Position numbers and translations under genes: made by a program. From contig OZ038452.1 of the NCBI GenBank assembly GCA_964036195.1, positions 10,658,704 through 10,722,703 on the forward strand: a stretch of 64,000 nt of DNA, written 5' to 3'. Shown in pieces: positions 7,349 to 63,467 of this stretch. The notes beneath the pieces were generated by a model, which was given only the letters and a program-made list of their open reading frames with translations, did no database searches and had not been told where the DNA came from. How positions within the stretch are numbered: position 1 is the stretch's first letter; the number at the start of each line of letters is the position of its first letter. This DNA is from Sphaerolaimus hirsutus (taxonomy: Eukaryota > Nematoda > Chromadorea > Monhysterida > Sphaerolaimidae).

Positions 7349-10300
7349 GTGCGCTCAGTGGTTTTTGTGGGGTTTGAGACATGATCATGGTTTTGGTTTG
7401 CCTGAGGTTTTTTCCGCACTTTGCTTCTTGTTCTAAATGTAGTGTTGTTAACGCTTTGTTTTGCAGCTACCTATATACACGATTTCGGTTCCATCCGCGA
7501 CTTTTATGGCGTTTTGTTGCAACTAATCATGCAGCACGTCGTTTTACTGCCGCTTGATCATTTCCATCATTTCAAGGGCATTCACCTCAATCTATTCAAG
7601 CCTCACCACAGCACCGGGCTCCGTGATGAACCTGCTGTGTGTGCCGCAGTCGCCAATGGTCGCAGTGCACCGGCGAAGGCGCGGCACCCTGGCAGTCGCA
7701 GGTACAGCTGCTCTACTGCCGCTTCACACAACTTGGCACAGGTCCAAAAATGGCACTTGCCGTGAAACACGCTGTTGCTGTCCCGTTCAAATGTTGTCTT
7801 CTGCAGTGCACTGCACAGTTCTACGGTGCATGATCGTGATGGTACTTTACGTTGTGTGCGTTCAGTTGTGGACTGCGATCGATCCTATGTTTCTAAATAA
7901 ATTATATCAATTGTTTCTGCAATCGTATTTAGGCAGTAGTAGCCTTTGCTCTGCTTACTTCATTCAGCGACAATTCACAGCGCGTCGGCAGCCAGCTGTA
8001 GCGGCGCGCGCGACAGTTACTTGGACGCGCCGCCATCTCCATTCGCCGAAGAGACCACCGGTGGAAACGTGGACAGGTCACGCAGCGACTTGTTGGACAT
8101 CAGGTGGACTGTGCGCGGCAGAAATGCGTCCGGTCCATTCAACGCGCTGAGACACCATTTGGCCGAGTCGGGTGGCGTTTCCACACTCGATTGTTGCGCT
8201 TGTTTGCGTTCTCTATTAGACTTTGATGTATGGTGCCAGAAAAGTGACATAAAATGGACGCTGGGAGTTTGCGTTCACATTTTTGCACGCAAAAATGACA
8301 TTTTTTCACTTTATAATTTTCACTATTTTTTCCGGGATCGGGATCCCGGACATGCTAGCCTAGCTGGAAGCGCGATAGTCACAGCATAAAATGGGTGTGT
8401 GATGCGCGGTGAAGTGTCCTGAAGTGACTTCACGCAGACGCGCAATGTCAGCGTGAAGACACTTCACTGCATTCCAGATGCTTCACGGCACTTCACGAAC
8501 CATGCAAAGTATGCTGCAAATGTTTATGAAGTGCACTTCACGAATTTCAGTCTTCGTGAAGCTAGGTGAAGTGAGTGGAAGACACTTCACCGAAAACTTC
8601 GTGAAGTGTGTGGAAGTGGGTGGAAGTGTCTTCACAGAGCTCACTTCCACTCACTTCAGGAACCCATATTTTGCTGTGAGTACTGGGGGCAGTACCAGAT
8701 CCTGTAATTCCCTGTAAAATGTCAAATTGGCAAAAGTCATGTAAAATGCCCAGAAAAATATTAAATGTCACGCAGTGTCAAAAGTCATGTAAAATTCCCT
8801 GCAAAATGGCAAAAACTCGGTTGCCATTTTACATGGCATTTTACATGACTTTTGACACTTTGCGTGACATTTGACATTTTACAGGGTCTGGTCTGGGATT
8901 GGCACCTTGACTACTACTGCTGCATATGATGCAGCACCTTTGCAAAATAACCATCGCCAGTTCGGTGGGTGGAAAACCGGTTTAGGTTGTCAAATCATAT
9001 GCGCGCGAGTGTCGAAACGCCTCCCTTGCATGCTGCGCAAACGTCGACCCAATACCAAACTAATCGGCGGTGCTGACGGACACCTCGCAAACCATGGCGG
9101 CGGCGGTTCACTGCCAGCTGTGTTCTTTTTTGGCAACGATTGTCCAGCGTTCAGTGATGGGGGAGGTGACCACGGTGGATTTGGCACTGTGCCATGCACT
9201 GACGATTTGGCTCAAAGCAAAGAAAGTGGGGCGGGAAGAACGCTGTGTGACTTCTTTCGCAGCTGCTCTCAATGCACAGCGATCTATATGGCCGGTCCCT
9301 GCCAGAAGAGCAGTACAGATGGTTAGATGGCGTGGGCTTGCTTCTTTGATTGCTTCTTGTAAAACTTTTCGGAATATTTTGCCAGTTCCGTGTTTGCATG
9401 CTGCAAAAGCGCCAAATGTCGTCGTTCAGTCATGCTTCAACCAGCCGCAACAATTTAGCGCGTTTAGAAAGCGCATGGCCTAGTAAACTTATCGCTTTAT
9501 CGCAATTCGTGAGCACTTTGCAACGTTTGCGGGGGCAATCAAACGCGGCAGGAAGTGCTGCGCGCGCGTGTATCTGTTTGCAGTGCGCCGCTTCCTGTGC
9601 GCCGCGATCGGTATGTCATGGCAACGCTTTCTGTGGTCTGTTGTCTTCCTGTACGTCCAGTGGTTGGTGGCTTGGTTGGGTTTTATTGCGCTAGTCTTGT
9701 TTGTAGATTTGCACATCGTAAGCAGTTCAGTGGAACTTGGCACATGTGTGTCATATGTGTGATATATTTAATTAGTTGGCTCTTATGCTTGATCTGTTTC
9801 AATTGTTTTGTTATGAATATACTATATTTCCACGAAATACCCCCTGGAATCACCCCCTTCTAATAATAATCCCAGGACAAAACGAGTTGAGGAAAGTTTA
9901 ACCCCCTCGAAATACCCCTCGTTTTTGAACGAGGTACATGAGATCATGTATGCAATGAACATGATGTATTAACTGGGGCTAATTTACATCTGCGTGTTTA
10001 CTAGTTTTGGTTAAGTAAAGCCTAGCCATTACTACGATCCTTCACGAAAATTTCTGGCGAATTAATAACCTCCCTCCCCTCGAATAAACCCATCCTGAAA
10101 ATTTGCTGGCGAACCAATAAAACCCGTGGGGTATTTCGAAAAAATACGGTACGTTATTTTTTTACGTATACCGTATTTCCTCGAAATACCCCCCCCCCCT
10201 CGAAATACCCCCCCCCTCGAAATACCCCCCCTCAAAATGGACACTATGAACTTATAAACCCCCCCCTCGAAATACCCCCCCCCCCAAATTTAGTGTATAG

Positions 10301-13300
10301 AGAACGTAAATGACAAAGGCTGCGGTTTGTCATCCCGACAATGCAGAACACACGTTAAAAACGATGACTCTGTTATGTGAGAACAGTGTTTGTACGTCTA
10401 CACACTTATAAATGTCTTTAGAGTCTTATAAATGGCGATTTTTGTTGCATTTTTCGACGTCTGCGTACGTTTCAGACGACATTTTAGTACTGGGATTTCA
10501 AAAAATTTCTGGCGAAATAATAACCCCCCCCCCCCTCGAAATACCCCCCCCCCTCGTTTAACCCCCCCTCAAAATTCTCACTCTGAAACAATAAACCCCC
10601 CGGGGGTATTTCGAGGAAATACGGTATGTAAGTTTATCTTTACTGGAGGTCTTAACTCACGAATAAGCTGATTTAAAATTCGCACGAACATCATGAGATG
10701 TTTAGCCAACAAATAAGTCATAAAACCGCGTCGGTAATATCAAATCTTTCATGTGTGACATTCATTAGCTTTAAAGTACCTTTGCTGCAGCATGTTACCG
10801 TCACGAAAACGCAATTATTTCTGGACACGATGACATTTGGCCGAAGTGTCATTTTCTGAATTTGAAGGTGTTTGAATTCAACGCGTATTCACGCAGTTGT
10901 ATTTAAATACAACTTTGCCGACCTCTTCAGCTATTACATTTTTCTCGGCATTCCCCCGATAACGCAGTGAATTCAGTCGGAATATAAAAATATATGGTAA
11001 ACTGCAGCACAGCTGCACCTTGGCTTGTGAACCCATTGCCCTGTCCTGTTTATAGTGCTTTTGAATTTTGATGGCCTTAGCACCCAAAAGTGGGGGAATG
11101 CATGCGCACTGGAGCGGTGCATTTTTAGCTCAGCATGCGACTTTTCACTTGACGATGACTTCACTTGGCGGCTGGCGCATGAATGCTCCGCTGGTCACCT
11201 CTCCCTGTCTCCATGATAAGACATATTCCATGGAAATTGGTGCGCGCCCCACTCCACCTTCAAGTGCGCCGCGCCAATGCGGATAAGTTGTGCAATTTAT
11301 TTGCACCGACAATTTTTTTTTCGGGCTGCCCGATTAATTGTTACCTATATACTACGATGCCAATCGGAACTAGGTACATTGAAAGGAATAGAATTAAATT
11401 TCGGAAAAATACTACGAATTAATCAGCTAAATATCGGGCTAATTGATTTTCGTCGGGGACACTTAACCCGTGTTGCCGACTGAGCCAGTGTTATTTGCTG
11501 TTTGAAAACTGTAAATACATTTGAAAAATTGTGAATTTTTTTTCTATAATCACCAGCAATATTGCGCAAATTTTTCAATGTGATTCTTTTAATGCTCTAT
11601 AGTACAAAAGTTATTACAAAAGACGAATGTCAGTGCTGTAAGTAAAAAGTTGGCTTTCCGCGGCAGCGCATCCATCTGTGCAATAAAAATGATTGGCGTT
11701 TTGCCGGACGTTCGGTTCCCCTGACCAACTGCCCATTCTCATGCCGCTGCATCTTTTCACGTAATTTCTAAAGCCCCAAATAGTCATATTGTCACAAGAT
11801 TGACTGAAACTTCGGGTGTTTTTGGTTCCGTATGTTTCAATTTTCATGCGGGCGTTCTATCGCATTTGTGACGTGGTGCGGCCAGTGGTCCGCCGCAGAG
11901 TTGAATATTTTGTTTGAAACTTTTTCAAATTGTCGCTTTAACACTGCACGTCGTTTCTCATCGCTATTTTCAAGGAACCACGACGCTTGCGGCTTGCGCT
12001 TTTACCGTTAAATTTTGCACGGCATTCCTAAATTCTTTGAATAATCCAAGATCCACAGCTAGGGTGTCAAATTTCCGTTTCCGCTTTTCCGCAGAAAATT
12101 TTTTTACCCATCCGCTTTCAGTTTTCCGGCAGCTGAAAGTATTTTACCTTTCCGTATTCGGTTTTCCGCCAAGCGTTAAAAATTTAGCTTTCGGTTTTCA
12201 GTAAAATATTTTTGACACCCTACCCACAGCCGATGGATCTATAAAAAACTACCGAGTATGAAAATGTGGTCAAACCAGCAGCCTTTTGCCACGCATAAAG
12301 TTGATTCAAAGATTTTAATTCATCACCATTTATACGGCTAGTTACACAGGTCCCGGCCGGGGACCGGGACCCGGCAAAAATAAAAAAATACAAAAATTAA
12401 AAATTGGCGTGTATAGGTTGTTTGCATGTTAATTAGGTGAATCATCACCAAATTAGCATGCACAAAATTTTTGCAAGACGGTTACACCTGCCAATGCATA
12501 TTTTTTTGGGCAGGTGTATAAAATGTTGCGATTCAACTCAAATTTGGCATGCTTGTACTCCTTCGTTTAGTGAGTACGCATGCCAAATTTTAGCTCCGGG
12601 CGGTTACCGGGGTTTTTTTAATTTATACTTTAAATTTTTTCGATCACTATATTTTTGTATAGTGATCGAAATTTTGCCGGGGTCCGGTCCCCGGCAATTT
12701 TGAAATGGCCCCGACCGGGGTCAAACGTCCCCGGTGAGGAACTTTTTTTTCAGTAAACAAATGATTTTTGTCCCCGACCGGGGTCGTTTGGCCCCGGTAC
12801 CACACAAAAATTTGTGGTACTTTTTGGGACTTTGTGGTAATTGTCCCCGGTCGGGGCCATACGACCCCGATGAGAAAAAATATTTTTTCAGTAAGTATTT
12901 TTTGTTATTTCACTGAAATATGCATGGTCGGGCTGAAAAGTCCCTGGACTGTGCTCGCCATTCGCGCTAGGGGTAAGCTACAGTCATAAAATTCTAAAAC
13001 GTATACATATCAGGTGTTTTGAGTTTTCACCCAAAGTTTCACCCCTCTAGCTCCACCCACTGCGGAACTGTGGGGGTTACAATTTCGGTCATTGTACTGA
13101 TGTACACATGGTGCTCTATCTCAACGCTGCTTTAAGTTGTGATCATGAAACTTTGGCCAGTGTAAGCCAGTGTGTTGGCAATGTGCTGATAGTATTCAAC
13201 ACTTTCATCAACATCATTGCTATTAAGGTAAAGTTAATAGGTATGCAAATCAGTGTGATGTGCAAGAAACGTGTGAACTGTGATGGATGTTTTGGTGATC

Positions 13301-16300
13301 ATCTGAGATCATGTTGTATTGCAGTGATTTTAATGTTGTTTTGAAATGTGCAGTAAATAATTATATACATCAAATTTCATTTGTGTTGTGACCAAATAGT
13401 TTTGGTTGCTCAAATAATCCCCCAGTCCTGAGATTAGGGCGTCTATTCAAGGTGTTCATTTTGTATGCCTTATCTGGACATTGATTTTGAAGCTTAATAA
13501 GGTGGTCATTATGGGCTGTTTATGAGCGGTTGACGATTAAAATGATCAGGACAGCATGCAGATTCAATTTTTGTGGTCGGATTAGTGATGTGTAAATTTC
13601 ATATGCTGATTAGGTCCAGTTGAATGAAAACGCATGCAATTTCAGAACTCAATATCTCAGCTATTTCTCAGCCGATTTTCACCAATAAACACTTAAAATG
13701 ATCAGAATCACCTGGAGCTTCCATACTTATGTTCTGATTATCAGCTGCCACTCCTAGACCCTGTAAAAGACCCTGAAAAGTGTCAACGACCCTGTAAAAT
13801 ATCATGTGTCATGTAAAATACCATGTAAAGTGTCATGTGTATCCAAATCTTATTTTATCATATCCAAATCTTATGTTTTTGTATCCAAATCTTACTTTAC
13901 ACATAAGATTTGGATACAAAAACATAAGATTGGGATATGATAAAATAAGATTTGGATACACATGACACTTTACAGGGTATTTCACATAATACATGACATT
14001 TTACAGGGTCTTTGACACTTTTCAGGGTCTTTTACAGGGTATTTTACATGATACATGACATTTTACAGGGTCTTTGACACTTTTCAGGGTCTTTTACAGG
14101 GTCTTTTACATGACACATGACATTTTACAGGGTCTTTGACACTTTACAGGTTCTTTTATAGGGTCTGGGAGTGCCCCCATCATGTGGTCTATGCCCTTTC
14201 TAGTTTACACACTATTATTATTTTGCATATGGCCTGCAGCAACATCTTTTGATCTCCAAATGATCGAGATTGTGATTTATGATGATCTGTGGTGCACAGC
14301 AAAAATTACTTTGAATGGCTATGTCAGTGACAGATTGTTGTTAGAATTGTTTTTCACAATGGGGTATTTATTGTGGCATAAACTGTATTTTCCAATGGGA
14401 CACATTTCTCAATGGAAAAAAGTTCACATTTATGCGATTGAGTAGTCAATGTTTGATTACCGTTTTTCCTCGAAATACCCCCATGGGGTGATTGTTTCAT
14501 AGTGGTCCCGAGAGGGGGGGGGGGGGGGGGGGTTAAACAAGGGGGGGAGAATTTCGAGGGGGGTTATTATTTTGCCAGAAATTTTTTCAAATCCTAGTAC
14601 AAAATCGTCGTTTGTGATGTACACTGGGGTAGAAAAATGCATCAATAACTGACATGTATAGACTCCTGTAGACTAATAGTAGTATGTAGATGGTATAAAC
14701 ACTGTTCTAACGTGATTACGACATTGTTTCAACGTGTGTTCTGCACTACGCAGAACACAAACTGCAGTATTTGTCATGTACGTTCTCTTTATACTAAATC
14801 TGGGGGGTATTTCAAGGGGGGGGGGGTGATTGTTTCATAGTGGTCTCAAGATAGGGAGGGGGTCAAACAAGGGGGGAGGGGTATTTCGAGGGGGGGGTCG
14901 AGAAAATACGGTAATCAAGTGGAGCATTTGATGTTTGCATGTGTTTTACTCTGCTCCAACACATGGTTTCTGCATGGTAGTTTTACAAAGTGCAGAAAAC
15001 TCCTAACTTACATGTTTCATTGTCAAAATTGAAACAGCTACTCAATTGAGCACTCAATAAATTCCACTTTGAATACCCCCACCCCCACTTGAAAAACTGA
15101 ACATTGAAAAACCTCCCTCTAAATAACTCCTCTATAAAGTTGGCCTTGAATGATGATGTAAAAAGCGCCAGACTTTTGGCACTAAGCGCCAAAAGCGCCA
15201 TGGCACTTTTCAAGGCGCCAAAAGCGCCATAGCACTTTTCAAGAACACTGCGCCAAGCACCAATGGTGTTAAAGGATGTTGGCGCCAAGTGCCAATGGCG
15301 CCAGCGCCAACAAATTTTGCTGTTCCTCAAGTGCAGCAATGCTAATGCAGTGCTATTTACTTGTGTAAGATGCAAGATTATGCCTAATTGAGTCAAGTTT
15401 TCTTCTTTTTGTGATGTTATTTTACAGCTGAGAGTTCCGGTTGACAATGGCAAGCCATCGTGGAAAAAAGTGCTTCAATTTGTATAGATAATGTCATGTG
15501 TCACATAAAAGACTCTGTTTAGTGTCAAATGTCATGTAAAATACCCTTTAAATTAAAGTGTCATGTTTATCTAAAACCTTTTTTATAGTATCCAAAACTT
15601 ACTCTTTTACATAAGATTTGGATACAAGAACAGAGGGTTTGGATATGATAAAATAAGATTTGCATACACATGACACTTCACAAGGTTTTTTACATGATAT
15701 TTAACACTTAACATAGTTTTTACATGACACCTGATTATGGTTGGTTGTATAAAAATTATTTGTGTACAAATAGTATAAAAATTGTATTTTACCGTATTTG
15801 CTTGAATAATCCCCCTGGGGGATTATTATTTCGTCAGACTTTTTTGAGGGGGGAACTATTCAAGGGGGGAATTATTCGAGGGGGGGAATTATTGTTTTGT
15901 CAAAATTTTCAAGCATGTTTCTATCAACACATTTAATGAAATATGCTTTATTAACACAAGAACGTGCCATTTTTGTTAATATTGGGTACAAACAATTGAT
16001 CAAATCTTTTAAGGGGGGAATTATTCAAGGGGGAAATTATTATTTCCTCACTCGTCTTACACGGGGGGATTATTCGAGGGGGGGAATTATTCAAGGGGGG
16101 GAATTATTCAAGCAAATACAGTATATTAATTTTCTTCTTGTTTCATTTTATTTTATTTTATTCTTCAATTTTCCATTTTATTTTTATTTTATTTTTATTT
16201 TTTCTGAGATTTTGCCAACCATGCACCTGACATTTTACAGGGTCTTTTACACTTTACAGGGTCTGTTACAGGGTCTGGGACTGGCACCAGGTACATTGCA

Positions 16301-19300
16301 TATAAACATATAATATCGACAATAAAACTTGATTGTCAACACAACGCAACACCATGCATTTGAACATCTCTCATCTGCCCATTATTTGGGAAAGTGTTGA
16401 ATATCCTTGCAATTGCATGAACATGTATACCGTATTTCCTTGAAATGGAAAGTGATGGAAAGGCGCCAGCAAAAATGGCGCCAGGCGCCAAGGGCGCCAT
16501 GGCGCCATTCGGAAAGTGGGCGCCAAGCGCCAAGGGCGCCACAGAAAAAGGGCGCCAGGCGCCAAGGGCGCCATGGCGCCATTCAGAAAGTGGGCGCCAG
16601 GCGCCAGGGGCGCCACGGAAAGAGGGCGCCAAGCGCCAAGGGCGCCATGGCGCCATTTGGAAAATAGGGCGCCAGGCGCCAAGGGCGCCAGGATAAAAAA
16701 GTGCCTACAACACCATGCGTGTGCTAAAAATGTTTCTACAGCACCATTGTACGCGCATTCTCTTCTTAATTCGCGTTCTCCAGGATGTAATGAACAAAAA
16801 CAAGGCTAGCAACAAAAAAATTTTTTAATAAAATGCACATGACGAATTCAAACGCAGTGGAAATTGTCATTTGACAACAATCCATTCATTACAAATAGAC
16901 CTTTCCAAACAATGTTTCCTAATTGCAATGATTTAAATCCGTTTATTTTTGATTTTGCAAGTTAACGATCCATCATTCTTGTCTTCTGATCCGTCAGACA
17001 GATCTGATGAACCGTTGGACGAAAGATTTCCACCCACTCACACAACTCCGTCCATTTTTCTGGCGAATTTAGATCATCCACGGATGCGTTTTTCATTTTT
17101 TTTTCGTTTACACAGCTCTCACCGTGAAACCCTGCTGGCGCCTTTTTGGCGCCCTTCTAAAGCAGGGCGCCAGGCGCCAAGGGCGCCACGGAAAAAGGGC
17201 GCCAAGCGCCATGNNNNNNNNNNNNNNNNNNNNNNNNNNNNNNNNNNNNNNNNNNNNNNNNNNNNNNNNNNNNNNNNNNNNNNNNNNNNNNNNNNNNNNN
17301 NNNNNNNNNNNNNNNNNNNNNNNNNNNNNNNNNNNNNNNNNNNNNNNNNNNNNNNNNNNNNNNNNNNNNNNNNNNNNNNNNNNNNNNNNNNNNNNNNNNN
17401 NNNNNNNNNNNNNATTTACAAAATTCACAACTATAAATAACAATCGTTGCGCGCAGACCGACCCAGGGCCCGTACGTTCTGCACGGCGGGCGACAACAGA
17501 AAACCTCGCCCCAGACGTCAGCAGGTGCCAATCCCAGACCCTGTAAAAAGCCATGTAAAATGTTAAATGTCATACAAAGTGTCTAAAGTCACGTAAAATG
17601 CCCTGCAAAATGGCAACCGACTTGCCATTTTGCAGGGTATTTTACGTGACTTTTGACACATTGCATGACATTTGACATTTTACAGGGTCTGGGACTGCCC
17701 CCAGATCACGCCGCTAGTGGAGCACGAGCCACTGGGAAGCTTGAGGAAAGATGCGGCTTTTTGTGCATCTGGTGACGTAACCTTTTCTCTCGATTCGAGG
17801 GCTGCAAGCACGGACACGGCTATTGGCCCCATGGGTGTGTTTTGGCTTAAATGACGACGTGAAGCGTCGCAACAACTATTGATGGAAGAGCATTGTTGTC
17901 CACTGTCGAGTATATGGTGCATCAGACTTACCTAAGCATAAAGGTGGACTTACAGCATAACGATCAATAGGAGGTGATGCGACAAATTCAACGTCACTGA
18001 TAGATGACTTATTTTCATTTTTTCAAGTTGTTTATTTAAAGGTCATGTTTCATAATCAATATTTTACAAAAATTTATCATGTGCGAGATGTGAAACTCGA
18101 ATAAGAATGAAAAACGTTCGATGAAAAATGGTCCGCCGTCAAATCAATTTTGCGGTGATGCCCTAAAATCAATTTGTCGGCAGTCATTGGATTGCAGCAG
18201 AGTTGGAAAAACGTATTTACGTTTACCCGAAATACCCGGTTATTCGGGTATTTATACTTACGTTTACGTTTACGCTTTCCAAAAATACCATTACGTTTTG
18301 TTACGTTTTCCTGACCAAAATACCCGGGTACTAGGGAAAACGTAAAAAAACTTGTGATCGTTCACACGTGCACATGTTCAAATCGGCTGCACCACCTGCA
18401 GCCAACAATATTCTTATGTTTTTGCATGAATGTAAAATGTATAGGTACAAAAAAGCGGTGAATAAAAAAGTCACTGCACGCTTGCACTTACACATGAATA
18501 CTGGGTACATATTCATAAATGTGTTCAAATGCTGAACACAGAAACCTTTTTGTTTGTTATTGGAGGCTTGCGTTTATAAATTTTATTGTGACGAATTCCG
18601 ACGACGCACTTGCAACAACTGTGAGTACGGTACCTAGCACACGTTGTGAAATTGGCAGGGCGAGTGCAAGCTCTGGTGCCAATCCCAGACTCTGTAGGAT
18701 GCCCTGTAAAATGTAAAACTTCATGCAAATGTCAAAACTCATTTGAAATGCCCAGCAAAATGGCAAAAATTTGCCACCTTTCAGGGCATTTTGTATAACT
18801 TTAGACACTTTGCATGCAATTTGATATTTTACAAAGCATTTTACAGGGTCTGGGACTCCCCCGGAATCACCAGCGTAGTTGATTTGGCCACACTTACAAC
18901 AGAAAGTGGTACAGATGCAGCGATTGACCCATCTCAATGTGAAAAAATGATATTTTGCAAAGCACAATGGCAAATACAGTGTATAATTTTTTTTTACGTT
19001 TACGTTTTTTTTACGTATTCCTTGGTATTTTAAAAATACCTTACGTTTTAGTATTTATACTTTTGATTTGGAAAAGGTATTTACGTTTACGTTTACGTTT
19101 TCCAAAAATACCGGTATTCGCACAACTCTGGATTGCAGTCGATAACCATCGACAAATTGATTTTAGGGCATCACCGCAAAATTGATTTGACGGCGGACCA
19201 TTTTTCATCGAACGTTTTTCATTCTAATTCGAGTTTCACATCTCGCACATGATAAATTTTTGCAAAATATTGATTATTAAACATGACCTTTTAATAAACA

Positions 19301-22300
19301 ACTTGAAAAAATGAAAATAAGTTATCGTTCAGTGACGTTGAATTTGTCCCATCACCTCCTATTGATCGTTATGCTGTAAGTCCACCTTAATGGCGCTGTG
19401 CACACTAGTTTATCGCCAGTTTTTGGTAAACTCATGAATCGACTTTGACCGCATTTAAGTTTACCAGAATGATGTGTCTGTCAACTGCAGTCGATTGGGA
19501 TTACGAATAACTGATTTCAGTAAACACAAATGCGTTAAAAGCCGATTTATGAGTTTACCAAGATCTGGCAGTAAACTAGTGTGTGCACCGCGTATTTAAC
19601 GACACACACATAACTTGTCCAGCCGCAGTTGCGTCTGAAAATTTACCTATTGCACAACTGATCGACTGCACCCCCCGACACGCAGGCAGCGATGAGGATT
19701 CTCCAACCGCAGGTGCCGTCGAGTACTACAACAGGTCGTTCTTGCCCGCACGCCCTGCAAACAGGTCAGCCGTCCCGGTTACCTATTCTTATCTGTGTTG
19801 GATTTTTACTTGGATCAAATCCGATTACCGTATATACTTGAATAAGACCCCCCCTTGAATACCTCCTCCCCCTTGAATAACTCCCCCCTCAAAAACACTG
19901 ACTAAAAAATAACCCCCCCCCCCCTCGAATAACTCCCCCTCTTGAATAAGTCCCCCCTCTGGGTGAGAAATATGCTATAAAATTTACGAAAATGATCGAT
20001 GAAAATACAAAAGAATGTTAATGTATGGCAGCGACAGCAGATACATGACATGTACGCAGTGTATAAACACCTTTTTGTTGTTGTTGAACTTTTAAATACA
20101 TGGATTACATGAGTTGACAGAATGCATTCATACGATGAATTCAGTCCAAGTTTCTGAGGAAAAAATCACTCCCTCCCTTGAATAACTCCTCCCCCTTGAA
20201 TGAGTCCCCCTCAAAAACTCTGACGAAAAAATAACTCCCCTGGTGTCTTATTCGAGGATATACGGTAGTTCACTACCGCCCAAACTTAAACCAAAATTGA
20301 TATTTGCATACTCCGGAGTCCGGACATGTGAGATCTCTGAACACGTGAAATGACAAAAAAATTTTTAGGGTGTGCCAGCTATTATTTTTCGACTAGACTC
20401 CGCGCACATAAATACATTGATATCGAATGGGGGACACAAATGTGGCCCAGTTTGAAATACTAATCTAATCTAATCTCAAGTCTAATCTCAAACCTTTCCT
20501 ATCCTGTCTAATAATATACTCGGCATACATGATACTCTACAAGTTTGGTCCATCATGCGACTCTTTGTAGAGTATCATGTATGCCGAGTTTTACCTGTCC
20601 AATCATCACCCGCAGTTCGGCCGCCGCGTGCGCCTCGTCCCAGTTGAGCACTCGGCCGCCGCCGGGGGCGCGTCGCGTCGCGTCCAGCGCGTCCGCTCCC
20701 AAGTTCCTCGACGCGAACATGCGCGCCCAGCAACAACTGGCTCTGGGCATCGCGCCCGCCGGCGCCGGCAGGCAGTTCAGGAGGAGGACCACCTTCTCCA
20801 AGGCCGCCGCCACTGTCGCCGCTGCGGTGCGCTTCACTATTGTTCAGGGTTTACGAAATAGCGATCTGCGATTGCTGTGTACGGTTGTGCTTGACGGATG
20901 AAAATTGAGAGATTTGTGACGATGATTTGGGTCGACGCTATTCATTTCTTCTTAACTCTGCAGCACATTTTGCACAAAAAACGGGCACTACGTAAAATGT
21001 TTATAGCTCAGAATGCAATCATCTGTCGCATTTTCGGCGGATAGGATTTTTTAATTGTGTGCAACGACATCTAGAGTTGGTAAATCCAGACTAAATCTCC
21101 AAGATCAGTTCTCGCACTGACCAATTCCATTCGTGAACTGCAGTCGCGCACTCACTCAGTACCGTCTATCGTCGCTGACGGGCGTGGCGCCGCGGACCAC
21201 CCTGCTGGCGCAGCAGCGGCAACAGCAGCTCGACGGCGAGGCCGAACTGCAGCCGGACGCCCGAGGCAGACACCCGCCGCTCCACGAGCACGCCGGCGCC
21301 AGTGTGCAAAGTGAAGCGGGTGCGTTTTTGGGCATCTTCGTTTTTTCGTTGTGGCGCCTTGAATGGCGCCACAATTGGTGTCTGTGAGGGATGCGGGTGA
21401 CGGATGTGTGTAGGGTGATCATCGTGTGTTGTGTTTTTAGGTGGTGTGTAGGCTAAATAAATACTTAGGTGGTGAGTAGGCAGACGTCGGATCATGGGTT
21501 TTGTATTTAGATTTTGAACCCCTGTGGGTGTTCAATATTTTACTGTATTTACCGCAAATTATTCCCGTGGCGGATTATCTTTTCGTCAGACTTTTGAGGG
21601 AGGAACTATTCGTTGGGATATTCAGAGGGATTATTATGTTGTAACAATTTGTAGGCTTGTATCTATCAATTAATTTAATGAAAAAGGTAGATATACTTTA
21701 TTGAATCGGGGGGGGGGGGGGGTGTTCATCGGACTGTAGCCAATTAGCCAAATCATAGGTATTTCGAGGGGGGGGGGTAAATTCAAAGAAGGTATTTTGA
21801 TGAAATACTTGAAGTAATTTTGTACGCATACTTTGCGGTCCGGCGAGTATACCTACCTACCTATGTACGTCTAACGCTGTCTGTGTTTTATTATCTCTCT
21901 ATTTTCCACCCATATGAATATGTTTCGCAAGTCTCTAAAGCCAACTGCATTCACGTGCACGCAATTTGTTCGGATCGAGTGTCTTAAGCTGGGTCATCTC
22001 GCGGGGGCACTGTGAATACTCTCAATTGGCTACTTGTTTGATTGGCAGCCGTTCTGCGCTCAGCGCCAACTGTTGAGACCACTTTGTGATATCTTATAGT
22101 GACAAGTGTGGCGTGCAGATTGCACTGACGCGGTGTGTTCGATGGAATGACATTGAGTTAGGTGCTGTTACTGAGTTGACTGATAGGACGCGACAGTTTT
22201 TGCTGGCCAGAACTTGCCGTTATGGGTGTCACTGTCAACTCCGCCACGTGTCACATGACAATAGAATATTTATGTAGTACAATAAAATTGCTGTCGCGTA

Positions 22301-25300
22301 ATAGCGTAAGCTGATACTTTTCTTAGATCTTTTTATCACTAATACCCATAGTTGTTAAAACATATTTACATTTACCCAAGATACCCGGGTATTCTGGGTA
22401 TTTATACTTACGTTTACATTTAAATTCCGGGTATTTATACTTATGTTTACATTTACTACAAATCGCTTAACTATCTATGTGGAGCAAACTTTGAGCATTT
22501 TTAGCCCCAATTTTTACTCAACATTGCTAAATAAAATTGACTACATCAATTTTCGAACAATTCTCATGTGCAAATGATCAGCCCAATCTAGCTAAAATTT
22601 TGTGTGAATGTAGGGCCAACATTTCTTTACATTGTCCCCAAATGGCACCCCCAGCACCCGCCCTGGTCAGCCGTGACTGCCTTCTACATATTTATTTCGA
22701 TTTTTTTTCTGGCAAATATAATTGGAAAATTTTGGAATCCCACACAGAATATTGCTGCGGGAAAGCGCGCTGCCATTTTTGGCATGCTGCCAACACAAGC
22801 ATTGGATACACTTGTGCTGGTAGTTTTGTGATGGAAAAAAATCACTAATGGCTCGCTCAGAGCCGCACAGGTTGCAGGGTGATTTTTAACTGCCGCTGTC
22901 CCCCCACTGCTGCTGCCTCACAAAAATTCATCCTAAATTGCAGATATCAGCCACTTAATGACATTCAAACATATTAAGAAGTTTATAAGTGCAAACATTT
23001 TGATTGTGATTGCAAAAACCACAAATTTACACTTTCTGGGAATGACCTCTTCATCTGTCTGGCCCATTTACACAAAATACAGGACACATTTCCAGTTGTC
23101 CCCTGGTATATCTTTAACAGATAATTGTTGCCTGAATTCAATGGGCACTAGATGTGCATGCAGATGCTGCAGAGGCCGATCACGCTTTTATGGAAATGCT
23201 GTCTTTGAACAGTGGTATTTCCACCGATGGCCATAAATGCAAACTTTGTGCAACAATGTGGTGCAGGACCAGCCACATGTTGCTCATGGCACTTAGGAAG
23301 CCAATCCTGGCCACCATGTGCTGTATGATAAGCCTGGGGCTGTGTAAGACACATTAGTTCCAATATATGTTTTGTTCAAAAAAATATTTCAGGTTTGATC
23401 TTCAGCAAAATTTTGGTGTGGGGATTGTGTGGGTTGTGAGGGGGTCGAAAAGTTGCAGGAAATTACCATTTCAAATGTCCCAAAAATCAGTGGCCTAAAC
23501 CATCCCCAACCTATTTTATAAATAAATCAAATTCCAGCCTGAACAAAATTTTTTATGGTTTTTCCATTTATTTTTACCAGAAAAAAGTGAGAAAAAAAAA
23601 TTTTCAGCAACAAGGGTGGCCTGAGGGGGTGCCACTTTGGTTATATATAGTATATACTTTAGGGCACCCTCACACTCAGTGACAGCCTGATGGCTTGCTT
23701 GCGTGATTTTTAAAATGTTATTTTGTGAATTTTCCATTTATATATTCCACCAGTTTACTATCCTGAGGCTACTATCCCCTGAGCCCTCTACAAATCGCTT
23801 AACTCTATATGTGGAGCAAATTTTGAGCAATTTTAGCCCCAATTTTACTCAACATCGCTAAATTTGCTCAATTTTGTCAATTTTGTTATATTAGGTTGTA
23901 AACTAATGAAGTGTCTTTTTTTGCCATCTCATACAAATATACATTTGTGCTTTCCATTGTGTTGTACGTTGACCGATTTTGATGCCATTTGAGTATGTTG
24001 TGGTTTGGGGTCTGGGCTATGATGAAATGTTTTTGTTTGCTCAAATAATCCCCCAGTCCCGAGATAAGGGGGGTCTATAAAAAGGTGGTCATTTTATGTG
24101 GCCAATATGCACATTGACTTTGAAGCTTAATAACTCAGCCATTTCTGGGCCGATTCGGATCGTTCAACACTTAAAATAACCATGACAATCCGCAGATTCA
24201 ATTTTTGTGGTCGAGTTAGTGATGTCTTAATCCCGTATGCCGATTTGACCCGGTTTTTGAACATGAAAAATAATCGTAATTATAATTTTTCAAGACGATT
24301 TTTTTGAAGTTGCTATCATATACTATAGACAAAAAGAATAAATCTGGCCCAAAAATTATTTCAATATCTCTCTTCAGTCAAAAGTTATATAACTTTAAAC
24401 ATTCGCCCCCCAACAATAAATAGAAAAATCTGCATGACGAGCAAATGCATGTGACTTCAGAAATCCATATCTCGGCCATTTCTCAGCCAATTTCCACCAA
24501 TGAACACTTAAAATGATCAGAAAAACCTGTAAGTTTGATTTTTATGCTCAGGTTATCTGTATTCATCGTTCTTGATTAGTTATTTACATGTATGGGAGGC
24601 AGAAGTTTAAAGTTCTATTACTTTTGATTGGAAAGAGATATTGAAATAATTTTTTTGGTAAATGAATCCCCATTGTCTAAAGTATATGATAGCATGTTTA
24701 GAAAAATTTATTTTTGGTGTTTAAAAACTGGGTCAAATCGGCATACGTAATTTAGACATCACTGATCCGACCACAAAAATGGAATCTACTGGTTGTGCTG
24801 ATCATTTTAAGTGTCGAACGATCCAAATTGGCCCAGAAATGGCTGAGTGAGTAAGGTTCAAAGTGAATGTGTAGATTGGCCATGCAAAATGACCACCTTT
24901 TTATAGACCCCCTTATCTCGGGACTGGGGGATTATTCGAGGAAACAAAAACAGTTCTTCATAGCCGAGACCCCAAACCCCAACATACTCAAATGGCATCA
25001 AAATCGGTCAACGTACAAAAGAATGTGGGATGCACAAATGTATATTTGTATGAAATCGAAAAAAGACACTTCATTAGTTTACAACCTAATATATATATCA
25101 TATAAATTTTGCCCCGGCATATTCCCAGAATAATTTTCAGCTATTTATCTATCCACAGGAGGGATTCACTACCTATCAGGCCCCCGCGAGGGTCAAAAAC
25201 GTGGAAACTCCTGATCCATTGTCTGCGAACAGGCCCAGGCCCGTTGTGGGTGTCCCACTAAATTGCCTAGCTTTCTATCGATCCCAGAGGTTGCTTCTAT

Positions 25301-34300: not shown

Positions 34301-37300
34301 CGCATAGCTCAGGGGTTAGAGCGTCTGTCTAGTAAACAGAAGGTCGATTCCCTCTGTGGCCTGCTTTTGCATTCCGCAATGTGTGGATTTGTATGCGATA
34401 TAAATACTTTTGCCAGTGTTCGCAAATGCACTCGATCTGACTCAGCGGGTCCTTGAAAAGTTGGTTACTTTTTCGATCATATTTCTGCTTACCGTAGCTG
34501 TTGAACACTTTCTTGCAGAAAGGTAATAAATTTTTGGCTGCCTGAAAACGGAAAGGTGAAAATTCTTCAGCTGCCTGAAAACAGAAAACACAATGCTAAG
34601 GAGAACTTCGGATAACGGAAAGTTGATAACCGAATTTCTGCACTTTTTAAGTGGTACCGGTAAATTGAAAAAAAAACCCTCCCTCGACAAACAAAAGACA
34701 AACGAACGTTCCCGTCTTCAATTTTAATTCAATTTTTTACGCATTTGCTAAATTTTTAAATTCAATAGGTTAAATAGTTTATTTCCACAGGCATTTTCTT
34801 AGGCATTTTTAGTTTCACTGGAGTACGGTATTCAATTCAGACTCTCAAGTGTCAAGTTATGCACGTTTTTCTTGCGGGCGGCACACAACATAATACCGAC
34901 AGCAACAGCGAGGGACACCAACAATTCACGATCGCGGAAGACTATTGAGTCTTGTGGCAACAATGCGGTCTCAAATTCAATCTTCCGTTGGCGATGTCCC
35001 TAGGCGACATGGGCACGTTTTGATCAATGTAATAGTCTGGTATGAACTCTGAGCTATGCCGTCACTTCATGCCACTTTCGTTGTTTATTGGGCCAATCAC
35101 AGTTGTTAAAATGTATTTACATTTACTCTGAAATACAATAACTCGAGTATTGGGTGAATACATATTTACACTTTCCCGGTCATGTCCGGCACCCTTGTGA
35201 TTTTACTTGTGACAAGGGTGTCAAATTTCCGTTTCCGTTTTCCGTTTCCGCCTTTCCGCAGGAAAATTTTGTACCTTTCCGTTTTCCGTTTTCTGGCAGC
35301 TGAAATTTTTTTACCTTTCCTTTTTCCGTTTTCCGTAAAAACAATTTTTTGACACCCTACTTGTGATCCTAGCACCCGCGCAGTTGGAGTAAAGGCAACT
35401 CAAGTGAAATCAAAAATAGGCTGCCGGACCTGACCGGGAAGGTATTTACATATACCTAAAAAAGTACCCGTACTTACCTGTACGTGTACGTGGAGAGAAA
35501 ATGTATTTTTTTGTTGCTAAAATAAAGAAATCTTGAAAAAAATCATGTTGCTTTCCTATAAAAAGGACTAAATGGTCATCAAAAACAACATCTGTTATGT
35601 CTTCCAGTGTAAAAATCGCTCTCATGTGTAAAAAAGTAGCTTTTACATTTTTCATAAAAAAACCACTTTTACATTCTGTACTTCTGGCGCTTGGCGCCAT
35701 TTTGCTCTGGCGTCATTGGTGCTTGGTGCTGCGGCTTCACGCCAAAGTTCTGGCGCTTTTCACATCACTACTCATTAGTCATGAGTATGGGTAAAAAAGT
35801 AATTTACATTTTCTGTACTCGGGGGTGAGTAAAAAGGTATTTTACATAGAAATACATATACTTTGAAAAAAGTTCCGTAATTTTAACAACTCTGAGACCA
35901 ATGTGTGAGCAGAGCGGAGCACTGCAGTGACGCATATGCTTGGCAGCGCCGTGCTAAGTTCTGTGTGTCCTGCAGGCTACAGAGGGCAGCTCAGCTGTTA
36001 TTTTGGCGTTCTCCTAGATGAATATTAATGACGATTTGAAAGTGACAACGGGACAAGATCAGGTGTGAATCAAAACATAGGTATATATTATTCAGCGCGG
36101 TACTCTTGCCAAAATGGAGTTGTGGACCATGACATTTTAATTTGAGCTCTTTCCCAGCTGAAATTGGAATTAACGACTGACATGGGCCAGCCACCATAGT
36201 TAACCAGATGAATATGTAAAATGGTATAAATATATACTTGACTATATATCCAACGTTAGAGCATAACGTCGAAGGCGCTATGTAGGTAGGCATTCTCATT
36301 TTCAGCTGCCTGCAACACGTCGCCCATTGCAACTGAGTAAGCAACTAAAATTAGCGATCCTCTCCATGCATAGCGCCAGGCGCAAACTGAATGAATATTT
36401 CATCAGTTTCGCGCTAACTCAGCCATCCGAACAAACAATAGAAACTTGTGAACTGAGGCTCTCCGGCCCGTGGCTGTCTTTTCCCCATGAGCGGGCGATT
36501 CATTAAGCCTCTGTACTCTTCTCGCCTTGGACGGGACTCGAGTGTTTTCTTTTCTCCAACTAAAAAATGTGGCTGTGGGATTCAAATGATAGTCTCGGCT
36601 CATCTGAAGAGTGTCAGTTGTCGTTTTTTTAATTTTCAAGTGTCCGATTTCTTGATGCATTCGCGGCTTTCCGTTCAGCGCGGTAATTTTCATGATCCTT
36701 TCGGGCAGCATAAATAGTGGCCATTTTGCATAAATAGTGCCGATTGAAAATTGTGGTAGGTAATATTTCACAGTCTGCAGAGGCTCCATTGACATTATTG
36801 GCTCCATTGATTGAATTACAGCTTAATTCATTACTCAAGAATAGTGCGAATTGACACGAAAAAAAGCGCGCCTCACACTTTACCCACACTAACTGCAGTG
36901 CACGAGTTCACCACAGCGCCGACTAGCGCGGCGCAAACGCACCGCGCCGCCACGCTCGACGGGCCGTCGACTTCCCGGTCTCGGGCCACGCCGCGCCAAG
37001 TGACCAACTCGGAGATCTGCGCCAACCCGGTGCCAATCCCGGACCCTTTAAAGAGCCGTGTCAAATGTGAAATGTCATGCAAAGTGTCAAAAGTCATGTA
37101 AAATGCCATGGAAAATGGCAAACCTACGTTTGCCATTTTCCAGGGCATTTTACCTGACTTTTGACACTTTACGTCACATTTGTCGTTTACATGGCTTTCT
37201 ACACGGTGCGGGACTGCCGCCCGGAGGACCTGGCACACGCGCTGGGCGGCGATGGCGATCAGCCGGTCGCCGGTGCCGCTGCCGCAGCCGCAGCCGACAC

Positions 37301-40118: not shown

Positions 40119-40164
<46 letters not shown>

Positions 40165-55100: not shown

Positions 55101-58100
55101 GGTGCGACACGTTGTGCGCCATAGTTTCTACTGACATACCGCAAACTGCCACTAGTTTTATGCATTTTAGTTTACCAAAAAGAGAGGTCTGTGAACTATC
55201 TATCAACGGCGAGAGCAATGTAACGTGTCGATAAAAAAACTTACCTATACTGGTGGCTTCTTATTCCGATTGGTTTTATTACATTGTAAGGTGTGCGGCA
55301 CGCCGAGTAAAATGATACCTATCATTTTGGATGAAAAATAATCCCCAGGAGTATATTTCGAGCCAAGACGGTAAATACCCCGTTAAGTGGTCGCGCCGCG
55401 CGGCGCACTGTACAACTCATGCAATAAGCAGTGCGATGCAACGTTGCCGGCGCTGGACCAGTGCACAAGTAAACCCGGTGCACAAGTAACAATGTCCGGG
55501 GCCAAGGTAGACCCGGTGCTTAGGTACGGCTCCCATACTTGAGCACTGGGTCTTCATGGGCATCACAGGGGTTCAGTATGGGGGGTTGGAGGGGGGTTGG
55601 GTTACCCCCCAAACGCTCCAGCTATATCTACATCTAGCGATTTTTCTCCCTTTTTTATTCTAAAGCTTGAAAAACTCCATATATTGAACCCTGCGACCCC
55701 CCACCTTCAAAAACAACATAAATACTACTTTTGCTACTTGTGTACCGGGTTTACTTGTGCACCGACACACCCCCAACGTTGCCGCGGTGTCGATTCCTGG
55801 CGCGGCTTGTGGCTCGGCGCTTGGCTGGCGGCAGTCGTGATTGTTTATTTGATTAGGCGGTAGAAGTTTGCTGGCGTTGAAACCTGGCGGTGGACTGAAT
55901 ATTTGCATTTTTGTATTAAAAATAGAATCGTTTAGCAATTAGAATTGATCCTGCGGTGTCAAACCGTGTGCTAAAACAAAAATCTGTTCTGGTGTATTCA
56001 ATTTTTTTGTACGTGGAGTAAAGATATGTGTGGAGTAAGAAAATAATGTGGAGTAAAGAGTGACTAGGTAGTTGTGTCCATTTAAAAATTGTCGCATCAA
56101 CATTACAAACATTTCATAATTACTGCACGCTGCCAGAAAATATTCAAAGAGTGCAGTGCAGTGCTTTCTGTCTGCCCTCTGGTCATTGCATTGGCCTCCA
56201 TATGCAACCATGTTTGTTTTCTGCTAGAAAACATCGGAAATAATTAGCTGCATGCCACTATTTTATTGAATTCGCTCAGCTGTCCTGCTTTCATGCATTT
56301 GTTTTATGCCTGTGTATCCATCGAACTGTGATCTGGCAGTCTGAAATTTGCATTACTGTTAGAAATTGACGGGTTTCCTATTGCGAATTGAAGCTGCAAA
56401 ATTACGTCGCCCTTTGAAAGTGACCTTGCATCCGTTCATTCCCAATTTGCGAGATTAAAGATCGTTTGGTTATCGTCCACCATCATTGACTCAGCGATCG
56501 AATGCATGTCTCAGATGTCACATACGTCCTCCCGTGTCTTCGCAGCGCAAACTCGAACGAACTCGGCATCGGGTGACATCACAAAATCAAAACCATTTCG
56601 CCGCCGCGCGTGTCCATGGACCGGCCGACTAGCATATCCTATTCCATCGAGAACTGCGCGGAGGACATTGAAGCGGCACGTGCCGCCAACGTGATGCAGC
56701 GTCACGGCGAGAATAATCACCGCGCGTCGACTTGCAGCGTGCACAGCGCGGCCGGCGGCAACGGCGGCGCCCAGCCACACCACCACTACTCGAAGAGGGT
56801 GGGCAGCGTGTCGGGCCAGTCGGGCAACGTGGAGGTGCACGGACCCGCCATTGAACTGACTTTGGCCAGCGATAGGTAACCGTGTTTTTTGCAACTGCAC
56901 TGCGACCGCCCTATACGTTACATTCGTTCCGACCGGCTCTCGTTGCATTGTTCAGCTCTTTTCAGAATACCGAATTATCCGATAGTGCGAACGAGTTCGA
57001 GCAGATCTCAAATATTGCACCACCAAAATTCCGAGGACGCCCCCTTGGCGAGGGTGAAAACGCAAAAGTCCAAAGCGAGAAACTTGTCGGTGATCGGCAC
57101 GTCGATTTCCGGCAACATTCTAACCGACATCGTGTCCAGATTTGGGCCGCACCATATTTCGCATTGTGACGGCGAAAAACAGCCGATTTTCGGCGTGAAG
57201 AAGCGGCACAGCGTGGACACCGAAAAGTCTGGCAACTATCAGACGTATGGAACTCTGGTCTCCGTGACGGAGGCAGATATACCGTCGCCGCCCGGCAGGA
57301 CGCAGGTGTACGCCCGGAAACGGATGCAAAGTGAAGGGATGTTTTGCGTAGCAGTGTCCTGTGGAAATACCTATATGTGTTGTGTACACTTTTACGTTTT
57401 GTCGTAATTTTACACAACGCAAATTGGGTAGCTGTAATCGGAGGTTAACTATAAATGGTCACGATAAATTAATAAACTCTGAAATTAACGAAAATGTTTT
57501 CGAATTTGGCATACCTATTTGTTTGCCACCGTTAGTGCTCATTTGATGGTGGGGGGGGGGGCGAAATATTCGATTAGAACTCAGTCGGTATATAACCCGT
57601 CAAATCCAAATATCCTCACTACACTTCACATCCGCTTTTGGGATCGCCACAGAATCAGGCACCGATTCAACCAGTGGTGCACAATCATCAAAACAAACCG
57701 TTAAAGACACCTAGAAAAGTAACGGCTAAGATAATCACTCACAGCGAGTCGGGTCCAAAATTAGACCTATCCCCGCCAAAAATCCAAATTTCTATGGATT
57801 CCGACATGCCGAGACAAAAAGGAACCGATGGCAATGGAAAAGACGTCAGAAAATCTGAAATTAACAGAGCGAAACCAAAGCCCCAAGCGGAAATACTCGA
57901 TTGGACTGATCCACCAACTTGGGAAATGGATAAAAGTGATTCGCAGCCGAAGTTCGGTCAGAGGTGTGTTGCGAGCTGTGTGCCACGGGGGCAGTCCCAG
58001 ACCCTGTAGAATATCCCGTAGAATGTCAAATATCATGCAAAGTGTCAAATGTCATGCAAAATGGCAAACGTACGTTTGCCATTTTGCAGGGTATTTTGCA

Positions 58101-61100
58101 TGACTTTTCAGACTTTGCATGACATTAGACATTTTACAGGACGTTTTACGGGATCTAAGATTGACACCTAGTGAGAAACCCGAGAAGCTCCGCGAACAGT
58201 CCTTCTCAATCGCAGAACGGTAGCCTTCCGCTCGGCGCCGTTCCCCTTCCACGACCCCTCGGCGGCGATCACGCCCACGGTGGCCGAGCCGGCGCCCAAG
58301 TTCGAGCCGGTCGCGCAGCGCGACAACCAGACGGCCGCGGCGGCGGCGGGCGGCAAGCAGCAGCGATGCGTCGCCATCGGCTTGGGCTTCGACCAACTGC
58401 ACGGCGAACGACGGCAGCAGCAAGTGGGCAGCGTCGGCGGCACCCCGGACAACGGCGGCGACGGCTTTCAGCAGGCTGGCGCCCACGGCGGCGGCAAGCA
58501 CAGATTCGACGACGCCGCGCCCGTGCGCAGGGTGGCTAAGGCGTGCGTTTTGGACTTTTCCGGATGCGTTTGCAATGTATTTTAATTTATTAAATTTGAA
58601 TAATGAGTGAACTGTGCACATACCAATAACCATGTGCACGAACTTGCGTCCGTCTTCCAATAAAGGTATGACATGACAACCAATGGGTAATCGCTGTTTT
58701 TGTCCATGTGGCAATCCCAAGCCCTGTAAAGTGTAAAGTAAAGTGTCAAATGTAAAGTCAAATGCAAAGTAAAGTGTCAGTTGTCATGCAAAGTTCAGTA
58801 ATAAAATCTTTTCTTTTTTTGTTTTGATTGACACTTTACTTTGCATTTGACTTTACATTTGACACTTTACTTTACACTTTACAGGGCTTTGGATTGCCCC
58901 CATGTGATCGTACCCTGCGGCTAAGTGCTATGTAAATAGTATTTAGACGTGTGTACTTTCATAAATTATTTACTTTATGTACATCATATTTATGTGGACT
59001 GGTGCCAGCAATTGGCACAAAAAATGCAGTTTGAGCGGTCTGTGCACCTTGCTGCGCGTCAGGTATGGCGTGTGCGTGATTACCTAATCTCGCTGGGTCT
59101 GTACGCCATTTCGTTTTCTTGTCGTATTTAGAAGTGCCGATGCATTTCTATTGGCGTCGTTTGGGCGTTTGGTATTGGGTTGGATTGGATGGGTATGTCA
59201 AAATATGGAATGGCACGAGGAATTGCGCCAAGAAAACAATTTATGTCAACATGGATCATGGATGCATATAATAATGCATCAAATTTCATCGGGCTGTTGC
59301 TTCATGTCAATGAATTTTTTGCGTTGTGCTATAATAATACCTAAAGGTGCTAATTTTTGCAATTGGTTCGCGAGATACGTCAGCATAGATAAGGGCTGTT
59401 GCATGCGTCGATGGCACAAAACCTCACTGCGCCATTTTGCCCTCAGCTTTATTCAGCTCATCAATTTTTAACCATTTTTTTATCATGCATACCTACATAT
59501 ATAAATGTATATTTCGCATTTGACCTCCAGATACAAAAACATTTTACATTTTTAGTTACTACCAAATATTCACCTACAAAACACATTCATTTCCACTTTT
59601 GCACCTTATCATCGCATCAACTTTCATCTCACAGCCTACATGAAGCGAGCGGTCACTTTGGTTTCTGATTTCCGGCGCGGCGGCCGCTGCAGTGCGGCGC
59701 GACTGCGCAGATGCGCCGTCGCTCCTATTGAGACGATTCAATTCGATTTCCATTCATGATGTTTCCATGTACGCGCGTCGAAATGGCCCTGGGCGCTGGT
59801 GACGCGCGTGGGTGGGAGAATACCCTGAATACTTTGTTTTGCGATTTGATGGACCTGTCATTTCGTTGGAGTGGTTCTTGGCGAACGCCATGGGCAGGCT
59901 GCCAGTTGTTTACACAGATTTTCCGCCCAATCCGAAACTCGACGTGCGGTGCGCGCAGCTGGCGACCGCTACAAGTGGAACTACCTTTATCATCCCGTCA
60001 TGTATTTATGGACTAGGCACAATATTTACTTTACATGCTAAATCAATACACGAGACGACGTTTAACTGTATTTTGCATGATAATACCAAATTTATTCTCA
60101 CTTCCCTCACCGTGCCTGTTTTGAACAACATCGTTGACTGATATAAGGATCCGCACGCGCACGCAAAAATTGGCAGCTTGCCAAAACCGAATACCACCGT
60201 AGTTGTTAATAACATCCAAATCCGTCGTTGTACGAAATTTGATGGTTTGATCGTTTGATTTCCAGCTATCTTTTTTAGATATTTAAGGAAGGAAATTTCA
60301 CCGTTGAAAACGCGCGGTAATCGAACTTAATTGGACACTTCCAGGAAAAAACGCTATTTTTGACTTTGGCGCTTTAACAATTATTAAGCTGAAAATAAAT
60401 TTGCGAACCCCTAAAGTCCTGGAGGATAGTCAGGAGCCGTGTAAAGTATAAAGTCAAGTGTCAAATGTCATGTAAAATATCAACCAAAACAACAAATATC
60501 TTATTACTGATATTTAGACACCTTGCATGAAAATTGTCAAATTTTGTATGAAATTTGTCATGACAATTGACAAATCTGTATGACATTTGACACTCAACTT
60601 TAAACTTTACAGGGTTCGAGACTGGCACCAGAACCCCTAACAATATTTTTCGTCTATCCATCCCGGAGTGACCGCAAAATCTACTGAACCGCAGCGCAGT
60701 GCAGTGTGTTCAGCAACCATTGACATCACCATTCGTCAGCGTCACATGCGCATCACATCCGTCGCCCAAATATACTCAGCTTCTTGTCAGCCCAACTCAA
60801 TTCGACTTGTTATCATACGTCCCATTGTGTGCACTTATCCATTCAATCGCGACGCTGCACGCGGGCGCAATTGCAGTGCAGCATAGTTGTTAAAACGTAT
60901 TTACGTTTACTCAAAAAGTACGTTTACTCCAGTACTGAGTAAATACGTTTATGTATACTTTGAAAAAAGTACCTGTACTCGCTTTTACGCATACTTTTTG
61001 AAAGTACTCGAGTACAGAAAACGTATTTCAGATAGCCTGTTTACAGGCTTTTTCAAGGCATAGATGGTAAAAACATTGAGACCAAGTGAAAAATAGGGAA

Positions 61101-62985: not shown

Positions 62986-63171
62986 CAGACCTCAATTATC
63001 TATCGGTCACTTACACGCATCCGTATTGTATAAATCCTCACATTTCGTTATTTTTCTGTGAATAATACAACATTGCGGATAAGAAAAAATTATTTTTGCA
63101 TACACGTAAACATTTCGACCAAACTCGCCATAATACGCATTCCGTTTGACGCACCGCTTTTAACACAGCGT

Positions 63172-63394
63172 AGTGATGGAAAAGCGCCATGGCGCTGGCG
63201 CCTGGCGCTAGCGCCAAAGCAAAAAGCGCCATGGCGCTTTTGGCGCTTGGCGCTAAAACGCTCTTGCGCCATTGGCGCTTGGCGCCGGGATCTGAGAAAG
63301 CGCCATGGCGCTTTTGGCGCTTGGCGCCATTTTCTGGTGGCGCTATTGGCGCCTGGCGCTGGCATTTTGAATGGCGCCAAAAAAGCGCCAACCG
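63172..63394. repeat. GGCGCC array downstream of the gene
   Basis: GTAGTGATGGAAAAGCGCCA through GGCGCCAAAAAAGCGCC; nearly the same as 42871-43092. It lies about 190 nt after the stop codon. Confidence 0.6.
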
Positions 63395-63461
63395 TGATTA
63401 GAAAAATGGTTATAATACTGTGAAAATGCACAATCCAGTTGATCAATTTTGAGTACAACTA

Positions 63462-63467
63462 AATAAA
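63462..63467 (+). promoter_or_regulatory. Candidate poly(A) signal
   Basis: AATAAA lies 477 nt after the stop codon, just past a GGCGCC repeat that would fall in the 3' untranslated region. Such hexamers are common in AT-rich DNA, so this is weak. Confidence 0.25.

Follow-up and report, generated by a model that had tools for sequence, protein, structure and literature searches.

The origin of new spliceosomal introns is an old question, and a 2022 nematode study, in the portions drawn on here, still debates why the sources of gained introns go unfound (PMC9169325). In the sections used here of another 2022 publication, a survey of introners, these elements are recorded in just two animal groups and in no land plants (PMC9860276). 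No report of introners in nematodes was found in the literature searched, whose scope mostly left out subscription papers. The family described below, from the nematode Sphaerolaimus hirsutus, is a new one of the known introner kind and, judging from its sequences, probably supplies new introns in a group for which no such supplier had been known. Its copies are well preserved, number in the hundreds and are partly ordinary MITEs, partly putative introns; with CAG versus CTG insertions as a built-in control, the family makes intron birth directly testable in an animal.

Among the introners described, those of Chrysochromulina sp. take their 5' splice site from the element, while the 3' site is co-opted at insertion (Gozashti et al. 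2022, PMC9860276). The present family would divide the work in the same way, the element bringing the donor and the insertion site giving the acceptor. However, the Chrysochromulina introners, as portrayed in the parts of that survey considered here, duplicate 4 bp and lack terminal inverted repeats, whereas the duplications seen here are of 3 bp and mostly CWG, the inverted repeats are long and the host is an animal (PMC9860276). The introners of Symbiodinium microadriaticum and Aureococcus sp. also resemble this family in that they are short elements with target duplications, many copies of which lie flush with introns; terminal inverted repeats are common to the Symbiodinium introners and to the family studied here (PMC9860276). 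Unlike the latter, the Symbiodinium introners get their 5' site from the duplication, and those of Aureococcus bring both sites and add 12 nt to the transcript, according to the same parts of the survey (PMC9860276).

In the same way, the introners of Amoebophrya carry inverted repeats at their ends, with a predicted hairpin joining the exon boundaries, and direct repeats of 3-5 nt at these boundaries (PMC7789003). Most of them use non-canonical splice sites and, in the excerpts of the study relied on here, they have no family-specific repeat motifs, whereas the copies described below belong to one family with canonical GT-AG ends (PMC7789003). As for the target, the NuwaI group of PIF/Harbinger-like (PHIS) transposons, which occurs mainly in animals, makes a 3-bp 5'-CWG-3' duplication (PMC4482050). 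The present family shares this duplication, the one character on which a kinship could be based; NuwaI families were identified via their transposases, as outlined in the parts of that paper used here, whereas this family is known from non-coding copies (PMC4482050).

Anatomy of the element and its copies across the genome

The window, i.e., the whole stretch of 64 kb of DNA that was analysed, carries a copy of the family, c4, which measures 177 bp from tip to tip (17525..17701, + strand). It begins with GTGCCAATCCC and ends with GGGACTGCCCC. On inspection of the sequence, its two ends (GTGCCAATCCC against the reversed GGGGCAGTCCC) form an inverted repeat that is imperfect, tip positions 2, 4 and 7 being mismatched. 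The preliminary description of this locus had reported an element with inverted-repeat ends and CAG on both sides, and this is indeed what is present: c4 lies between two CAG copies (17522..17524 and 17702..17704, both +) that form a 3-bp target site duplication. Two inner arms (17551..17616 and 17622..17687, both +) are 91% complementary, and the predicted fold of the stretch reaches -121 kcal/mol (z -15.4). The left CAG would be the end of an upstream exon and the right CAG the 3' splice site of a putative GT...AG intron of 180 nt (17525..17704, +), a layout which, at other copies, restores conserved proteins.

Used as a query against the 348-Mb assembly, c4 gave 4031 initial candidates, 40 of which were scored, and 77 copies were aligned tip to tip. 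As is typical of MITEs, the copies are short, numerous and dispersed, with inverted-repeat ends and a target duplication; that they are non-coding was judged from the 177-bp length. The genome-wide search for the element ends, which the preliminary description had suggested, yielded 399 copies that have exact tips and lie between two CAGs (none with a reversed-pattern control) and 263 that lie between two CTGs, i.e., in the opposite orientation. Similarity among many copies, as represented by the 399 CAG...CAG ones, stops at the boundaries of the putative introns, as it does in introners. An intron gain caught in a single gene, as first proposed, is thus too narrow a view of these hundreds of copies, and the gain can be called recent only in a relative sense, c4 being 93.2% identical to the family consensus.

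A CWG target is CAG when read from one strand and CTG from the opposite one, so that both classes would be equally frequent if neither insertion nor retention were biased. The excess of CAG over CTG (p 1.4e-7 for the difference) would reflect orientation-dependent survival rather than a preference at insertion, but an insertion bias could produce it instead.

The flanks were inspected more closely in copies picked by likeness to c4 (L002-L030), 28 of which are usable with both tips located, L023 having been dropped. Nineteen of these 28 have identical CWG flanks, the duplication by which NuwaI is recognized: 12 are CAG/CAG and 7 CTG/CTG, the others being CTG/CAG (5), CAG/CTG (1) or different (3). 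Coding-like flanks are present in the CAG/CAG, CTG/CTG and CTG/CAG classes, with only seven CTG/CTG copies assessed; CTG insertions in exons therefore exist. The middle base disagrees between the two sides in L003, L014, L019, L028 and L029 (CTG left, CAG right; L019 and L028 are related copies) and in L010 (CAG left, CTG right), among the same 28. If the right-hand triplet turned into CAG, an acceptor would arise.

The coding character of flanks was assessed with a codon model, for which 28 copies located elsewhere, picked via homology or by eye, served as training set; in left-out tests, the model found the correct frame among six for 25 of the 28. The coding threshold was set at the 95th percentile of the null distribution from the window. 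Of the 399 CAG...CAG places, the first 50 in list order comprise 36 that score as coding in the GT-first sense, 6 that do so in antisense and 8 under the threshold; related copies (L057/L058/L059 and L049/L072) are included in these 50. For the 27 places outside the training set, the corresponding numbers are 16, 5 and 6. Three copies of 120 bp or more lie in six extra 10-kb stretches, and L050 is the sole coding-like one; L094, taken from an arbitrarily placed stretch, is the same copy as L050 and is not independent of it. The length of open reading frames was ruled out as evidence of exons for the family, the exact join giving the longest frame among three in 13 of 30 cases, where chance would give 10.

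Status of c4 and of the other copies in the window

Exact excision of c4 joins 17441..17524 (28 codons in frame, +) to 17705..17857 (+; TGA end at 17855-17857) in an open frame of 77 codons, in which each part would be a coding stretch, both without homologue. It had been claimed that a coding frame reads straight through once c4 is removed. The frame is open, but this has no statistical weight: junction-spanning frames of at least 77 codons were obtained in 36% of 20,000 random window joins and in 70% of 4000 GC-matched joins, so that openness alone carries no evidence, and frame length was discarded as a sign of exons at c4. In the codon model, the sense frame expected from an intron ranks first of six at the c4 flanks, with 10.0 bits (p 0.021 when compared with random positions of the window and p 0.13 with GC-matched ones; p 0.04 with GC matching when its margin to the second-best frame is demanded as well). 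The exons 3 and 4 that the preliminary description also has joining in phase could not be recognized in the sequence; a gap of 200 N (17214-17413) lies just upstream.

It is possible, albeit unlikely, that c4 is an ordinary non-coding MITE, since any copy inserted on CAG with its GT tip first reads CAG|GT...CAG|, in or outside genes. The copy c11 (62220..62368, - strand) has this very look in the same window, with CAG/CAG and GT...AG, and its flanks are not coding-like by the codon score; an intron-like appearance alone is therefore no proof. The chance-level length of the c4 frame is also what a non-coding copy would give, and the flanks do not reach the coding threshold in nine of the 11 copies of the window to which it was applied. 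Likewise, the search for homologues of the c4 region, with 163 candidates, found none at E <= 0.1, and no Pfam family matched the joined product. Pfam gave no family for the frames of 13000-22999 on both strands either (stops entered as X, without positive control). What argues against a non-coding c4 is that its flanks are coding-like in the exact frame and on the strand predicted by the intron model, and that sense-direction coding signal is the rule among the 50 CAG...CAG places mentioned above. The support that c4 itself lends to its intron status is modest; on these sequence data its exon status is likely, and c4 can be regarded as a rather probable spliced intron.

Elsewhere in the window, Pfam searches found nothing in the frames of 32001-41999 (+) and of 54001-63999 (both strands), and nothing in 20 single open reading frames except an SR1P match far below the cut-off; a PDB search with the 62416-62982 frame gave no significant match.

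In total, 11 fairly complete copies of the family, in both orientations, were tabulated in the window, and a profile scan delimits 12 stretches with a length of 120 bp or more, among which are badly decayed ones. The seven copies with at most 5 mismatches in both tips all start with GTG and end with C, and none of the seven has GT at the opposite tip. Identical 3-bp flanks are found in four of nine copies, as against 11 matches in 72 when the left flank of one copy is paired with the right flank of another (binomial p 0.036); the duplications also include CAT/CAT and CCG/CCG. Only c4 and c6, both in the sense frame, pass the codon threshold among the 11 copies. The latter (37030..37220, +), which has a CCG/CCG duplication and lies within coding-like sequence, scores 38.7 bits. 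The nearest AG ends 6 nt beyond the element, and an intron at 37030-37226 would keep the frame with the loss of one codon; c6 is likely a second introner of the window with these limits.

By contrast with these two copies, the codon score does not find coding-like flanks for c2 (8687..8905, -), c8 (57988..58167, -), c9 (58708..58900, +; CAT/CAT) or c10 (61651..61834, -; CTG left, CAG right). The flanks of c5 (18676..18862, +) are also non-coding by this score and its right end lacks an AG. They are unlike those of c4: a single ancestral insertion in an exon that was later duplicated was considered for c4 and c5 and ruled out, the alignment of their flanks being no better than that of shuffles. 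An inverted duplicate of 164 bp, 95% identical, flanks c5 on either side (17937-18100 and 19229-19392).

Conserved proteins interrupted by the element

The products submitted to homology tests, 25 from other copies plus that of c4, were chosen by eye. Matches were obtained for 18 of the 25 (15 of 19 from the first 50 places and three of six others), c4 being without match. In several cases, exact excision gives an alignment without gap across the junction: PRP8 (108 aa, E 7e-72), ABC-F (83 aa, E 7e-39), VMAT2 (the VMAT-like L022; 91 aa, E 1.5e-34), HSP60 (75 aa, E 8e-27) and POLRMT (56 aa, E 4e-20). In all of these an exon is interrupted and exact removal of the element restores the protein, as expected of introners. 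For the family, these gapless alignments lend good support to the mechanism put forward in the preliminary description, in which the GT would come from the element and the AG from the duplicated CAG. Similar introns in unrelated genes would also point to gain rather than to an old intron.

The 15 products from the first 50 places that match a solved structure or a domain are L017, L031, L033, L034, L037, L041, L044, L045, L046, L048, L050, L058, L066, L074 and L076, with L017, L037, L041 and L046 below Pfam's own cut-off. Pfam matches span the junction in L034, L041 (just below the cut-off), L025 and L076. The matches of L017, L031, L033, L044, L045 and L048 are one-sided at the junction, and that of L037 is weak on each side; in the product tested for L017, the first 13 residues come from another frame and the match is confined to the part after the junction. 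No match was obtained in this set for L036, L056 (tested with its right flank only), L071 and L078. Among the L002-L030 products, L022, L025 (dynein-like) and L015 (homeodomain) match across the junction, while L007, L011 and L029 are without match. L015 is a CTG/CTG copy and thus has no AG at the duplication; a 1-nt shift of its inner ACAAG acceptor is such that use of this acceptor would add 18 nt, in frame.

The PRP8 gene bears on whether the interrupted genes are functional, because three nearby pieces of it carry the element (L057, L058 and L059, contig C1, 22.17-22.19 Mb). These neighbouring copies, and the changed left flank of L057, whose element is identical to that of L058, are what would be expected if the elements sat in decaying duplicates of genes, with the interrupted copies (PRP8 and HSP60 among them) being unspliced pseudogenes and intact copies elsewhere fulfilling the function. 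This is quite improbable, given that the joined proteins show neither gap nor stop over the stretches tested and that the same pattern recurs in many unrelated genes. Furthermore, the elements of L058 and L059 are 94.7% identical (5.3% of positions differ), but over 107 PRP8 codons the two copies show four synonymous differences and no replacement. The absence of replacements despite this divergence indicates that PRP8 is under selection with the element present, unless L058 and L059 are haplotypes; they could be unmerged haplotypes.

Precise excision is frequent in PIF/Harbinger-type elements, and DNA elimination occurs in some nematodes. Precise somatic or developmental excision of the element from the DNA instead of RNA splicing, which accounts equally well for an exact removal leaving one CAG, is nevertheless very improbable, as it has no need for a GT tip or for a preference for CAG, yet CAG prevails over CTG (399 vs 263).

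Proposed route from transposon to intron

The best explanation of the whole, and a very probable one, would be that a CWG-duplicating hairpin MITE gives rise to introns when it lands on a sense-strand CAG with its GT tip first; c4 is probably among these. Within this explanation, splicing itself and the existence of a gene at c4 are what we infer. The family would be a non-autonomous DNA transposon family of hairpin MITEs whose insertion duplicates three base pairs of target, in most cases CWG, the left tip of the element starting with GT and its right tip ending with CCCC. When the insertion occurs in a sense-strand exon CAG, GT tip first, the upstream exon would end in one CAG copy, and the other would serve as 3' splice site. 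From the resulting CAG|GT...CCCCCAG|, the spliceosome would take out the element together with one CAG and leave the mRNA unchanged. Such copies would persist in genes as new introns, and elsewhere they would be ordinary MITEs. That the family consists of introners, with putative splicing, appears highly probable.

The splice signals of c4 are of unequal quality when compared with splice-site consensus sequences. The putative 5' splice site is the GT at the element tip (17525..17526, +), whose context, CAG|GTGCCA, is weak: 8.5% of the GTs of the window score as high. An internal acceptor-like motif, TTTTACAG (17684..17685, +), lies in the predicted hairpin stem and outscores the CAG duplication as acceptor; its use in c4 would leave 19 nt more in the transcript and put it out of frame. 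It is retained in 25 of 28 coding copies and in 46 of 50 others, which gives no sign of selection against it in the coding copies.

Predicted folds of 62 CAG/CAG copies suggest how this motif might be avoided. The median probability of being unpaired is 0.00 for the internal acceptor, over the 55 copies that possess it, 0.5 for the half-open CAG acceptor and 0.37 for the donor GT, which is mostly paired. The hairpin could therefore hide the inner acceptor and bring the GT and the CAG together.

A wider reading can be held with moderate confidence: a CWG-targeting hairpin transposon would mass-produce introns in a nematode, with orientation-dependent survival and with a hairpin that masks the acceptor and aligns the splice sites, even PRP8 being hit. 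Insertion into CWG is possible in either orientation, of which only the CAG one gives a ready-made intron, so that survival in genes would depend on orientation. If this wider reading is true, introns have been placed even in PRP8, at the core of the splicing machinery.

Besides the family, the window contains short repeats rich in GGCGCC (CGCCAAGGGCGCCA), clustered at 16456-16700, 42886-44116 and 63187-63390. A further repeat, in which TTCGAATAA-like motifs are bordered by C or G runs, occurs in both orientations at 15800-16110, 19830-20250 and 37550-37990. In the assembly, a match to a Pfam family that bears the name of C. elegans fits a nematode host, to which TTAGGC telomere repeats also point; these stand at two contig starts, L084 and L088 (two of 14 contig ends, one of the 14 being N).
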